Assembly (NCBI RefSeq): GCF_003667545.1
Contig: NZ_RCUV01000006.1
Coordinates: forward strand, 186,001-250,000
From: Mycetocola manganoxydans
GTDB lineage: Bacteria; Actinomycetota; Actinomycetes; Actinomycetales; Microbacteriaceae
Length of the DNA: 64,000 nt
Direction: 5' to 3'
Shown here: positions 7,905 to 52,165 of the stretch, piece by piece
Position numbering within the stretch: position 1 is the first letter of the stretch
Layout of the letters: each line of letters begins with the position of its first letter
The notes under the pieces: generated by a model
Databases searched by the model: none
What the model was told of the DNA's origin: nothing
The model's input: only the letters and a program-made list of their open reading frames with translations
Program-made: the position numbers and the translations under genes

Positions 7905-7910
7905 TATGAT
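7905..7910 (+). promoter_or_regulatory. -10 element of the glyA-folD promoter
   Basis: TATGAT at 7905-7910 matches the primary-sigma -10 box. It would start transcription at about 7917, the first base of the conserved ZTP-riboswitch core. No good -35 hexamer was found at 16-18 bases. Placement relative to the aptamer is the main support. Confidence 0.6.
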
Positions 7911-7914
7911 CGGT

Positions 7915-8010
7915 CTGTCGTAACTGGCGTGCAGGCGGAAGGCGATTCCGCCTCGGATGGTCACCATCGGGGAGCGACTGACACGGATTCGGCCGAACGC
8001 CTGGGTTGAT
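7915..8010 (+). ncRNA. ZTP (pfl) riboswitch upstream of glyA-folD
   Basis: The leader matches the ZTP/pfl aptamer in order. GTCGTAACTGGCG (7917-7929) is followed by a hairpin GGCGGAA/TTCCGCC, then ATGG-TCA-CCAT, then the conserved GGGGAGCGAC that closes the first domain (GTCG pairs with CGAC), and finally AACGCCTGGG (about 7997-8004), the second-domain core expected to form the pseudoknot. This class binds the purine and folate stress signal ZTP and typically controls one-carbon genes such as glyA, folD and purH, which is the situation here. The remaining 45 bases to the glyA start are the expression platform. No strong terminator stem is obvious there, so translation control is plausible. 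Conserved blocks were read by eye; no covariance model was run. Confidence 0.88.
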
Positions 8011-8055
8011 ACGGATTACCTGCAATTTGTCCGCCGCTGTCTTAAGGAGCCAGTT

Positions 8056-24014: not shown

Positions 24015-24114
24015 CAACACACTTAATCTACCGGTTCCCGCTGGACGATGTGACCACACACCGTCGCCGGGCGCGGAGTACCGTTAACCGTTGCGTACGC
24101 GAGAGGGGAGAGCC

Positions 24115-24744
24115 ATGGCTGAAGAGTTCCACAAGCCCACCAAGTTCCCCGGCAAGATTTTCGAATCCTTCCAGGGCGGGATCGACCCGGCCGAGTCGAG
24201 CCGGATCGCCCACGAGACGGCGCTCGCGCTGCTCGCGCGGGTACGACACGACCCGGACCCGGATGTCGTCGACCGGCTCATCGCATACACCGACGAAAAC
24301 GGCATCGACACCATCGCCGAGCTCTGGTCGCGGGCGACGGCACGGAGCCTGCCCGGCGCGCTCTGGCGGATCTACCTGCTGCGTCTGATGATCCGGGAGG
24401 ACCCGCACGAGTCCAGTTACCTGTTCCAGCGCGGCAGCGAAGTGATCGGCACGATCGATCCCGTCGTCGCCGGCGCATCCATGCCGACCGGGCCCGACGA
24501 GATCCGGACCCTCGCCGATCGCATCCTGCGCGGGGTCTTCGAGGGGGACTTCGCCGTCGCACTCGAGCGGGCCGCTGCGTTCTGCCGGGTGTCGGCCGCC
24601 GGTTCGGCGAGCGTCGCAGACGATTCGGATGCCGCCGAGCCGGCACGATCGGCGGATCTCACCACCCGCGCGCTCCGGCTCTCAACCCTCGCGCATGAGC
24701 TCGGCAGCTGCGCCAAGCTCTGGCGGCACGAGTCACTCGACTGA
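24115..24744 (+). CDS. Conserved-looking hypothetical protein, 209 residues
   Basis: I do not recognise a functional domain. The protein is acidic and mostly helical, with no signal peptide or membrane segment. It begins EEFHKPTKFPGKIFESFQGG and carries a well-formed segment WSRATARSLPGALWRIYLLR and a C-terminal LAHELGSCAKLWRHESLD. A cysteine occurs in FCRVSAAG and another in GSCAKLW. Start ATG 24115 has a strong GAGAGGGGAG site. It stands alone between tRNA-Lys and the lipid kinase fusion. It looks like a genuine cytoplasmic protein, possibly restricted to related actinobacteria. No function is proposed. Confidence 0.75.
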   Translation: MAEEFHKPTKFPGKIFESFQGGIDPAESSRIAHETALALLARVRHDPDPDVVDRLIAYTDENGIDTIAELWSRATARSLPGALWRIYLLRLMIREDPHESSYLFQRGSEVIGTIDPVVAGASMPTGPDEIRTLADRILRGVFEGDFAVALERAAAFCRVSAAGSASVADDSDAAEPARSADLTTRALRLSTLAHELGSCAKLWRHESLD

Positions 24745-24783: not shown

Positions 24784-26349
24784 ATGAGCCCGAGCGGTGC
24801 GGCACATCCCATACGGCTCGTCGGCGTCCTGCCCGCCTGGGTTCGGAGAATGGACGCGGCCGTCGGGCGCCGGATCAACGCGCGCCGCACGCATCCGCTG
24901 ATCGATCGCGGCTTCGTCCGGTTGTCACACTCGGCGGATCGCAGCGTGCTCTGGTTTACCGCGGCGGCGGTGCTGCTGATCCTCACCCGTCATCGGGCAG
25001 CGCTTCGCGGTGTGGCATCACTCACCGTCGCGAGTGGCATCGCGAATCTTGTCGGCAAACGACTCTTCGGCGGTGACAGGCCCATCCTCAAGGACATACC
25101 CGTTGGACGCAGGCTGGCCAGGCATCCGGAATCGGGGTCGTTCCCGTCCGGCCACTCCGCCAGCGCGGCAGCGTTCGCGACCGGGGTGGCGCTGGAGTTC
25201 CCATCGATCGGCGCCGTCAGCGCTCCGGTCGCGGGGGCAGTGGCGTACTCCCGGCTGCACACCGGCGCGCACTGGCTCTCGGACGTCCTCGGCGGAATCG
25301 CGATCGGAGGCGGTGTCGCCCTGCTGGGAAAGCTGCTGCTGCCGCTTCCACCTCGCCGGAAACCTCGCGAAGGCGGTACTGCGCTCGTGCTCCCCGCGTC
25401 GGCAGACGGCGAAGGGGTATTTCTTCTCGTGAACCCCGGCTCCGGTGCTGCCGTCGTTGCGCGCCAGGATCCCCTTCCCGTCCTCCGGGACCGTCTCCCT
25501 GCCGCCCGCATCCACCTCCTCACCGAGAATGACGACGTCGCCACAATCCTGTCCGATGCACTCGAGGGGGAGGACCCGCCCCGCGTCATCGGCGTGTGCG
25601 GCGGCGACGGAACCGTGTCGGCAGTCGCTCAGGTCGCCCGCACGGAGGCCCTGCCGCTACTGGTCGTGCCCGGCGGGACCTTCAACCACTTCGCGCGAAC
25701 GGCGGGAATCGAATCGGTCGACGACGCGATTGCCGCGCTCGAGGCGGGTGAAGGGCTCCTGGTCGATGTGGGTGAGCTCCGCCTCGGCGCGGACGGACCG
25801 GAAACGGTGCTCAACGCGGCATCCATCGGCATCTATCCGGACTTCGTCGCCGAGCGGGAAAAGCATCAGGGCACCTTCGGCAAATGGATCGCCGGGATCC
25901 TCGCGGCAATCCGGGTGTTGCGGAGAAGCGAGCCGGTCGAGGTCGTCGTCGACGGCCGGACGATCCGTGCGTGGTCGATCTTCGTCGGGATCAACCGCAA
26001 TCACGCGGTCATCCCGGCCCCGTTGCAGCGCCGCCGTCTCGACGACGGGCTCCTCGACATCCGGATTCTTCACGCTCGAAGTCGCCTTCACGCCGTCGCG
26101 TCGCTGTCGTTCGGCCGGAGAACCAGTGCGCTCGTGCGGCGCCTCCTGCCGGTGACGTCCGCGGTCGAGTCGTTCACGGCTCCCGAACTCGATGTCGCCG
26201 TCTCTCCTCGCGACGGGGAGGCCCCCAGCTTCGCCCACGATGGAGAAGTCGAACTCTCCGTCAGGGACCGCGGGATGCCACGGGGCGGCTACCTGTCGAC
26301 GTTACGGATCGTCGAGGATGGGCTCAGCATCTACGCACCGCACGGTTGA
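24784..26349 (+). CDS. PAP2 phosphatase / diacylglycerol-kinase-type lipid kinase fusion
   Basis: A 521-residue two-domain protein. Residues about 50-185 form a PAP2 lipid-phosphatase domain with membrane helices and the three-part signature: K92 to R99-P100 in GKRLFGGDRP, PSGHSASA with H124, and SRLHTGAHWLSD with R157 and H163. Residues about 210-510 form a diacylglycerol/sphingosine-kinase catalytic domain, with VNPGSG, the nucleotide loop GVCGGDGT (273-277) and VPGGTFNHFAR. One protein thus joins a phosphatase and a kinase acting on membrane lipids, perhaps linking undecaprenyl or phosphatidate dephosphorylation to rephosphorylation. Domains are clear; the coupled role is inferred. Confidence 0.9.
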   Translation: MSPSGAAHPIRLVGVLPAWVRRMDAAVGRRINARRTHPLIDRGFVRLSHSADRSVLWFTAAAVLLILTRHRAALRGVASLTVASGIANLVGKRLFGGDRPILKDIPVGRRLARHPESGSFPSGHSASAAAFATGVALEFPSIGAVSAPVAGAVAYSRLHTGAHWLSDVLGGIAIGGGVALLGKLLLPLPPRRKPREGGTALVLPASADGEGVFLLVNPGSGAAVVARQDPLPVLRDRLPAARIHLLTENDDVATILSDALEGEDPPRVIGVCGGDGTVSAVAQVARTEALPLLVVPGGTFNHFARTAGIESVDDAIAALEAGEGLLVDVGELRLGADGPETVLNAASIGIYPDFVAEREKHQGTFGKWIAGILAAIRVLRRSEPVEVVVDGRTIRAWSIFVGINRNHAVIPAPLQRRRLDDGLLDIRILHARSRLHAVASLSFGRRTSALVRRLLPVTSAVESFTAPELDVAVSPRDGEAPSFAHDGEVELSVRDRGMPRGGYLSTLRIVEDGLSIYAPHG

Positions 26350-26427
26350 CGCACGATACCCGCTGACCTGCCCCTCGAGTCAAGCGTGTTCGCGACCCGA
26401 GAACAGGGAACATTACCGAGTGCGGGT

Positions 26428-26436
26428 TGTTACACT
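26428..26436 (+). promoter_or_regulatory. Extended -10 promoter for the small-RNA candidate
   Basis: TGTTACACT (26428-26436) is an extended -10 element (TG-N-TANNNT). It predicts a start at about 26442-26443, where a long closing stem begins. No -35 hexamer is visible, which is usual for extended -10 promoters. Confidence 0.55.
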
Positions 26437-26442
26437 TGATCA

Positions 26443-26530
26443 GGCCGGGCCGCATAACCCCGGGCTCCAATTTTTGCCGCTGCGAGCGGCCTTCCGCCGA
26501 GAGGCGTTTTGCGGCCCGGTCCTTTTCTTT
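26443..26530 (+). ncRNA. Candidate structured small RNA with intrinsic terminator
   Basis: GGCCGGGCCGCA (26443-26454) pairs with TGCGGCCCGGTC (26510-26521), a stem of 10 Watson-Crick pairs plus a G-U and a further G-C. The enclosed sequence holds two hairpins: GCCGCT-GCG-AGCGGC (26476-26490) and CGCC-GAGA-GGCG (26495-26506, a GNRA loop). The outer stem is followed by CCTTTTCTTTT, a terminator-like U tract. An extended -10 box sits just upstream. It lies in the 358-base gap between the lipid kinase fusion and the cupredoxin. It does not match the conserved core of SRP RNA, and I could not place it in a known class. It could alternatively be an elaborate terminator of the upstream gene. Confidence 0.5.
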
Positions 26531-26707
26531 TAACGCATCTTCTTCTCACGCGTCGACCAGCGACTGTGCTGACGTGCGCCGCCGCCTCCCTCCCGCCCGC
26601 GGGCACGCTGGCTTTCTCGGACGGGAACCCCGACGGCGAAGTCTGGCAGTTGGCTGTGACCGGCAATCCCGGGCAAACCATGTGCGGCTCGGCGCCGAAT
26701 CGTTTGC
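26531..26707 (+). other. Leader region of the cupredoxin gene
   Basis: Remainder of the long gene-free gap. No open frame of convincing composition is present. CGAATC at 26696-26701 lies six bases before the cupredoxin ATG, the same spacing as -10 boxes elsewhere in the window. It is not a primary-sigma hexamer, so an alternative sigma factor (perhaps the one encoded at 27996) may read it. GGGAAC occurs at 26624-26629 but is too far away to form a pair. Nothing firmer is visible. Confidence 0.25.
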
Positions 26708-27157
26708 ATGACCTCACAGATTCGGTATCGAACACGGCTCGCCCTCCCGGCGGCGCTCGTGTTGTCGTTGGGGATGTTCGGCCTTACCGGCTGCGCATCC
26801 GGCGACCCCGTCACTGCAGGGTCCAGCCCGTCGGCGAGCTCTGAAGAGCCTGCCGAGGGCGACGTCACCCTGGTGTCCCTGAACTTCATGCCGGAAACCA
26901 TCACGGTTTCGGTCGGAGAAACGGTCACCTGGTTCAACGGAGAGTCGATCACGCACACGATCACGAGCGGCACCTTCTCCGATGTCGACGAGACCACCGG
27001 GCTTCGCGGAAGCGACGCCGCTGATGGTCTCTTCGACGAAGAGCTCGGCGAGAAAGGTGGAACGTTCTCGTTCACCTTCGACACCGCCGGGACCTACCCA
27101 TACTTCTGCGACATCCACTCCGGCATGAACGCCACCGTGGTCGTTGACGAAGGATGA
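26708..27157 (+). CDS. Plastocyanin/azurin-like cupredoxin lipoprotein
   Basis: A 149-residue secreted lipoprotein. Signal peptide residues about 8-26 end in the lipobox LTGC (cysteine near 28), followed by a serine- and glutamate-rich linker. A single cupredoxin domain covers about residues 50-147. Type I copper ligands can be seen: the histidine in ESITHTITSG, then Cys in TYPYFCDIH with its following His, and the methionine in HSGMNATVVVDEG. It should bind one copper ion on the outer face of the membrane and may carry electrons or buffer copper. It is followed 73 bases later by another lipoprotein and then a sigma/anti-sigma pair. Confidence 0.87.
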   Translation: MTSQIRYRTRLALPAALVLSLGMFGLTGCASGDPVTAGSSPSASSEEPAEGDVTLVSLNFMPETITVSVGETVTWFNGESITHTITSGTFSDVDETTGLRGSDAADGLFDEELGEKGGTFSFTFDTAGTYPYFCDIHSGMNATVVVDEG

Positions 27158-51884: not shown

Positions 51885-52165
51885 GTTGTGCTCCTTCACC
51901 GGCAGGTACGTGCCGGACGATCCGAGTGAATGGATTCATGCATTGCCTGCTGCGTTGCATGCGCGCGGTCGTGCGGGTACACGATCGCGAGACTTCAGTA
52001 TGGCATGAAGTGAAGGCCCGGGTGCGGGTTTCGCGCGGTGTCCGTACCCGCGGCATGCAGCATCCGTTTGGGCATTTCCCAGACTGCACAACTACGATCG
52101 GTGGGTGTTGGCCGCGGCAACCCGACCCGAAACCGACCGAATACTCACCCCCGAAGCGAGGATTT

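Follow-up and report, generated by a model that had tools for sequence, protein, structure and literature searches.

The window analysed here is a 64,000-nucleotide stretch of the Mycetocola manganoxydans genome, in which a gap of 358 bases (26350-26707) is flanked by a lipid-kinase gene and a cupredoxin gene. The gap holds a small RNA locus that occurs as a single copy in the window genome. An initial annotation, made from the letters alone, had proposed an RNA gene with its own promoter and terminator at this place, and the gap as well as the extended -10 box, the 12-pair stem, the two hairpins, the GAGA loop and the tail are all found at the positions given there. The -10 box indeed sets the expected +1 on the first base of the stem. 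The description of the promoter holds for this -10 box and is extended here by a second, ECF-type promoter that overlaps it and was absent from the annotation. The features are as follows.

24091 to 24744, + strand: F0, a 217-aa protein, the next gene upstream of the RNA in most loci examined within the order, and encoded beside the RNA in several other families
26407 to 26411, + strand: GGAAC, putative -35 of an ECF (SigR/SigH-type) promoter, from the sequence, upstream motif counts and the published consensus
26428 to 26436, + strand: TGTTACACT, extended -10 of a housekeeping-type promoter, with TACACT at 26431-26436 and the expected +1 at 26443
26429 to 26431, + strand: GTT, putative -10 of the ECF-type promoter, N17 after GGAAC (usual N18)
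26443 to 26521, + strand: the RNA, about 79 nt plus tail, from DNA search and covariance models
26443 to 26454, + strand: P1, 5' strand, partner 26510-26521
26456 to 26457, + strand: P1b, 5' strand (AA), partner UU at 26507-26508; AG/CU, UG/CA or GA/UC elsewhere
26458 to 26475, + strand: J1, single-stranded CCCCGGGCUCCA plus a variable linker of 6 nt; core nearly invariant, candidate effector
26476 to 26490, + strand: P2 hairpin, loop closed as C-UNCGA-G
26495 to 26506, + strand: P3 hairpin with a GNRA loop, here GAGA
26510 to 26521, + strand: P1, 3' strand, partner 26443-26454
26522 to 26531, + strand: T-rich tail, probable intrinsic terminator together with P1

In the window, P1 consists of 12 pairs, one of them G-U, and the tail CTTTTCTTTT follows directly 3' of this stem. 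The hairpin loops read UGCGA (P2) and GAGA (P3). The folding energy of the RNA is better than that of 199 of 200 dinucleotide shuffles (z -2.66). The free MFE fold places part of the C-rich strand in extra pairs; in the conserved structure this strand is single-stranded.

Comparison with Rfam, which the annotation had proposed as a check, gave no Rfam 15 match up to E=10 over 25900-27000, and in 25 loci of relatives the RNA has no match at or over a gathering score. The only Rfam overlaps on the RNA of relatives are with Thr_leader, at 29.5 bits (L138) and 26.2 bits (L233), where the gathering score is 55. Bacterial small SRP RNA (RF00169) is of similar length and also small and GC-rich, however it was rightly set aside by eye: RF00169 has no match at the locus, and the SRP RNA gene lies on another contig of the window genome (G000:C16). 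A likeness also exists to 6C RNA, an actinobacterial sRNA with C-rich unpaired bases, which in the passages of PMC8388888 dealing with it has two stem-loops with at least six C in each. Here, in contrast, the C run lies in the junction strand and not in hairpin loops, the relatives carry loops of five bases that end in GA and, mostly, GNRA loops, and there is no Rfam match. Ms1, of about 300 nt, and the 6S-like RNAs are, like the RNA described here, independent structured actinobacterial RNAs, but differ in that the window RNA matches no such Rfam entry. Ms1 and 6S-like RNA of actinobacteria bind RNA polymerase, according to the abstract of PMC9130861, and by analogy RNA polymerase binding would be one possible model for the window RNA. 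A scan of the whole window at gathering scores returned two tRNAs, an msiK RNA (51885-51941, - strand) and a ZMP/ZTP riboswitch (7910-8013, + strand), the latter two both over their gathering scores and all of them away from the RNA.

Conservation and covariation across the class

Lack of stem conservation in relatives had been named in the initial annotation as an argument against its own proposal, but the stems are kept. A DNA search (query 26350-26560) recovers the RNA locus in 6/6 genomes of the genus, and for three of the five genomes besides that of the window it narrows to the RNA itself. Within the family, a DNA search with 26420-26535 at E<=1 finds the RNA in 293/299 genomes and 85/85 genera. 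The firm matches number 274/299, because 19 of the 293, chiefly from genomes no larger than 2 Mb, lie above E=0.01; one of these 19, G144, nevertheless gives a clear covariance-model match (8.4e-16). Across the order, covariance model R1 recovers the RNA in 244/248 genomes. In the class samples, which were drawn evenly and are no census, R1 finds it in 123/197 genomes at E<=1 and the refined model R2 in 131/197 at E<=0.01, leaving 66/197 without a match by R2 at this threshold. In a phylum sample only 10/149 genomes match, all 10 inside the class. Carriers named by a pattern scan for P2 and P3, with at least 119 stretches, include Streptomyces, Kitasatospora, Nocardia, Rhodococcus, Mycobacterium and Mycolicibacterium, and among the pattern matches listed R1 confirms the RNA in 32 of 32 stretches tested. 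In the family of G579, Mycobacteriaceae by inference, 66/121 genomes match, of which ten carry two or three copies of the match, and 55/121 are without.

Conservation begins abruptly at the RNA. When 61 distinct family sequences are compared in pairs without gaps, identity reaches 0.84 in the first 14 RNA bases versus 0.28-0.32 over the 120 bases upstream, which makes for a sharp conservation edge. Further inside, the ungapped identity is 0.67-0.69; one-base indels break the register there. The segments ACCCCGGGCUCCA, GAGCGG and CGCCGAGAGGCG do not vary in alignment A1 (61 distinct rows from 65 picked family loci); outside A1, two loci of genus g78 (L096, L097) deviate, with UCCCGGGUUCCA and one altered P3 pair. 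Alignment A2 contained reverse-strand matches and was left out of the counts, and A4 comprises 78 of 80 class-wide matches, with L150 and one tandem copy of L231 omitted.

The stem P1 covaries throughout and the loops hardly vary. At the best ungapped placement, 59 of the 61 family sequences form 11/11 P1 pairs and the other 2 form 10/11; in the family alignment 99.9% of the P1 cells pair, and for 5/11 P1 pairs one or more sequences have both bases exchanged. Class-wide, in 79 distinct rows from 80 matches that were aligned to R1, 97.9% of the cells pair and 13/21 pairs change on both sides, giving 207 cells with such changes versus 53 in shuffles and 7-54 with the strands slid. An alignment fitted to R1 leans towards the model, however the structure-blind MAFFT alignment A4 shows the same exchanges by eye. 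The compensatory changes that had been suggested as a test were thus found in P1, and one pair per hairpin also changes with pairing kept. The second pair of P2 changes from C-G to U-A in 32 of the 79 distinct class-wide rows with pairing kept, and the outer pair of P3 is changed and still paired in 11/79 (C-G to U-G in 10, to U-A in 1). P3 carries a GNRA loop in 71/78 rows, as GAGA (53), GUGA (10) or GCGA (8). P1b, two pairs beside the C run, pairs directly in 59/78 rows, and a further 9 rows need a single bulged base; the pairs are AG/CU (29), AA/UU (15), UG/CA (8), GA/UC (3) and others; the misfits are 8 Streptomyces-type rows (AG/AG) and two single rows. Wobble pairs, 106 G-U versus 4 A-C cells, fit the + strand. 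From these structure comparisons, the constant part is the single-stranded CCCCGGGYYCC(A) between P1b and P2, opposite P3. When J1 is instead paired with the 3' strand or with the 5' strand of P1, zero pairs change on both sides; a switch or antiterminator working by J1-P1 pairing was rejected on this ground.

Taken together, covariation, sharp edges, a T-rich end, a -10 at fixed distance, wobble pairs fitting the + strand and conservation across the class uphold the proposal of an independent RNA gene of about 80-90 nt. Kept nearly unchanged across the class and seemingly switched on in part by the oxidative-stress machinery, this structured small RNA is probably a real regulator, and a still unstudied one.

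Promoters and the 3' end

Promoter motifs were counted in 145 distinct upstream stretches from 147 hand-listed loci, with second copies omitted and loci such as L016, L020, L080-L097, L118, L119 and L122-L128 left out. The grouping is our own: Mycobacteriales comprises four f22 loci and those of Nocardia, Mycobacterium, Mycolicibacterium and Rhodococcus, and Streptomycetaceae three f37 loci and those of Streptomyces and Kitasatospora. In the family of the window (f1), 61 of 63 upstream stretches have a TAnnnT at 4-9 nt from the start (2.6 expected from shuffles), and 13 of the 63, all 13 also with TAnnnT, contain GGAA[TC]-N16..19-GTT (0.11 expected). Among the Mycobacteriales, 20/25 upstream stretches carry this ECF motif (0.04 expected), in 19 cases spaced by N18; TAnnnT occurs in 0/25. 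For the Streptomycetaceae the counts are 9/14 (ECF motif) and 14/14 (TAnnnT), for f35/f53 2/3 and 1/3, and for the 35 other stretches 4/35 and 23/35. In f47, where the ECF motif occurs in 4/5 stretches and TAnnnT in 0/5, the pattern suggests copies that are purely stress-controlled. Four f47 loci (L110, L111, L113, L114) carry the ECF motif alone, and a housekeeping-type -10 was not found upstream of them.

The window itself contains GGAAC-N17-GTT, one base below the consensus spacing as in several other family members, and this putative ECF-type promoter overlaps the housekeeping -10. In the sources, as far as their passages go, the SigH consensus of M. tuberculosis is GGAAYR-N17-GTT, equal to GGAAY-N18-GTT, the SigR consensus is GGAAT-N18-19-GTT, and promoters common to SigH and SigE in C. 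glutamicum have GGAAC. As judged from its letters, the window thus has a candidate SigR/SigH-type promoter (GGAAY-N16..19-GTT) just upstream of the start, with a spacing one under the optimum. The window genome encodes a SigH_actino sigma factor (TIGR02947, 313.2 bits, cut-off 251.55); G009, a small genome without a SigH match, nevertheless has a match to the RNA. Given the TAnnnT and ECF motif counts, the published consensus and the SigH_actino sigma factor, basal housekeeping transcription combined with stress control appears well supported for the family and, less firmly, for the promoter in the window.

At the other end of the RNA, the T fraction is 0.39 in the 14 bases after P1 versus 0.16 further down, and 39/61 family tails have at least five T in 10 bases versus 4/183 background windows.

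Possible modes of action and genomic context

The firm part of the picture, as far as comparative sequence analysis can predict it, is the independent structured RNA with two overlapping promoter types, whereas its mode of action is what we infer. We favour, with a probability of roughly 0.58, a new class-wide family of independent, trans-acting structured RNAs of about 80 nt, which would be made by the housekeeping and SigR/SigH systems and whose core would bind a conserved partner. Basal transcription would come from the housekeeping holoenzyme, and SigR/SigH, or an ECF sigma factor of overlapping specificity, would raise the level under thiol-oxidative or heat stress. P1 would shield both RNA ends and serve as terminator stem as well, and the constant core, with J1 presented by P2 and P3, would form the binding platform. 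The RNA might in this way retune gene expression in stress. Exact 12-nt complements of J1 were searched for in six genomes, and in 6/6 the complement occurs once per genome, at the RNA locus itself and nowhere else; a backwards control pattern is absent from five of the genomes and has 3 occurrences in the sixth. Because the whole core is nearly constant and the J1 complement is confined to its own locus, a protein or RNP partner seems more likely than a long antisense target.

A more specific version is offered tentatively, and we hold it short of probable: a class-wide stress RNP RNA, in which a three-way fold of P1/P1b, P2 and P3 would let the CCCCGGG strand bind one conserved protein or machine, for example RNA polymerase or the ribosome, with a basal level, a SigR/SigH boost, subtypes of short and long form, and as many as three copies in a genome. 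If true, this would describe a regulator with a reach like that of 6S or Ms1 and an unrelated design.

A serious rival, in our view less likely, is a trans base-pairing sRNA. Its C-rich J1 (CCCC, CUCC, ACCC) and the linker would provide short seeds of 6-9 nt for pairing to the G-rich Shine-Dalgarno regions of several mRNAs, whose translation would be blocked in stress. J1 would suit this role, being C-rich, nearly invariant and single-stranded in the conserved structure; in other relatives it runs on as CCUCACC or CCCAACC, which resembles an anti-Shine-Dalgarno sequence, and regulatory sRNAs go well with control by a stress sigma factor. However, base-pairing sRNAs usually conserve the seed alone, and here the constancy of P2, P3 and the GNRA loop comes close to that of J1; the missing exact 12-nt complement outside the locus in 6/6 genomes also counts against it.

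The initial annotation had left room for a cis- or a trans-acting role; a trans role is now strongly favoured, with differing downstream genes and the convergent PstB gene as evidence, and the cis role has not stood up. As a cis-acting leader, attenuator or riboswitch the RNA would control the gene downstream, which we consider very improbable. The cupredoxin gene does lie downstream on the same strand in the window, and a same-strand sigK lies no more than 1 kb downstream in 17/40 family loci, which still leaves the family without a conserved same-strand downstream gene. PstB, however, is downstream and convergent in 30/40 (within 300 nt in 8), and the two alternative J1 pairings lack covariation. 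The copper and lipoprotein neighbours, once put forward as context for the role, fall away too, as the context that relatives share is without these genes. Neighbours differ again in the Streptomyces-type loci, with HelD/HelR-like, malic-enzyme-like and HU-like genes (all scores under curated cut-offs), and in Mycobacteriales; a WhiB-like gene, without NCBIfam match and presumably resembling WhiB6, lies upstream in some mycobacterial loci. A context so variable is a strong argument against the leader of one downstream gene, and together with the T-rich end that closes the unit it largely refutes the cis reading.

That the element is a mere terminator of the upstream gene (lipid kinase in the window, F0 in relatives) is barely conceivable: the GC-rich stem and T-rich tail would fit, as would F0, which in 34/40 family loci ends on the same strand no more than 320 nt upstream, but a terminator has no need of constant J1, P2 and P3 or of a -10 at fixed distance, and at L068, with PstB as the same-strand upstream gene and a convergent F0, the RNA core is the same, so that conservation refutes the terminator-only reading and agrees with the earlier view of more than a plain terminator.

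F0 is placed likewise, on the same strand and ending at most 320 nt upstream, in 23/29 loci of other families, and was not detected in the examined stretch of 53 further loci. In the class it occurs in 62/197 genomes, of which 61 have the RNA, the exception being G537; in the window the lipid-kinase gene lies between F0 and the RNA. The window protein belongs to no Pfam or NCBIfam family, 44 relatives gave scattered weak family matches (best E 0.0052), and the best match among PDB sequences has E 0.41. The predicted structure is confident and all-helical; Foldseek found no match to it at E<=0.001, and matches to helical bundles are middling (best Z 7.2). Since searches and model fits are all weak or middling, they are uninformative on the function of F0.

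To return to the favoured reading of a trans-acting structured RNA with a conserved partner, no paper with any of six core fragments was found in the literature covered, which lay outside subscription papers, and neither this literature nor Rfam yielded a description of the class-wide family, the fold or the stress promoter. The RNA spans the range from the family of the window to Streptomyces and mycobacteria, is absent from Rfam and carries a thiol-stress promoter motif in many lineages, and hence points to a layer of the SigR/SigH stress response that has gone unrecognised among antibiotic producers and related bacteria.

Subtypes, copies and scr2952

A longer subtype of 107-123 nt (loci L290-L302, L147-L149) keeps P1, CCCCGGG and P3 and has a larger domain in place of P2, with CG[UC][UC]CGGCUG common to 14/19 copies. 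Upstream of it, GGAAY-N17..18-GTT is present in 17/19 and GGAAG-N18-GTT in the other two. Both types occur together in four Streptomyces-type genomes (G587, G639, G649, G658). The covariation model and the subtypes should make the RNA findable in more actinobacterial genomes.

The Streptomyces-type copies sit between HelD/HelR-like and malic-enzyme-like genes. A comparable place, between SCO2951 and SCO2952, would be expected for scr2952 of Streptomyces coelicolor, reportedly described by Vockenhuber in 2011. Passages of the respective sources identify SCO2952 as HelD (PMC8655204) and SCO2951 as malic enzyme (PMC7494193) and state that scr2952 has confirmed expression and is conserved among more than half of the Streptomyces tested (PMC8388888). 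In the literature covered, scr2951/2952 or SCO2951/2952 are mentioned by 8 papers, and scr2952 itself by PMC8388888 alone. Since it is flanked by HelD-like and malic-enzyme genes, the Streptomyces copy is probably scr2952, an uncharacterised sRNA. This identity, a comparison of gene order, is only probable because a passage of PMC8388888 places scr2952 in Rfam, whereas four Streptomyces-type loci (L233, L138, L139, L174) have no Rfam match. The literature passages that concern scr2952 report no wider family, structure or stress promoter. Should the two be the same, an sRNA of reported expression would gain a structure, a family and a likely regulator.

Tandem arrangement is seen in Nocardia abscessus (L231 3899-4069), where two copies lie 88 bases apart and the ECF promoter is on the upstream copy. 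In f38 loci (L116-L118, L122-L129), an extra conserved hairpin-like stretch lies in the 60 bases upstream, directly before P1; it runs as GCGACAGCC..GGCUCUCGC in many loci and resembles a 5' extension of the RNA.
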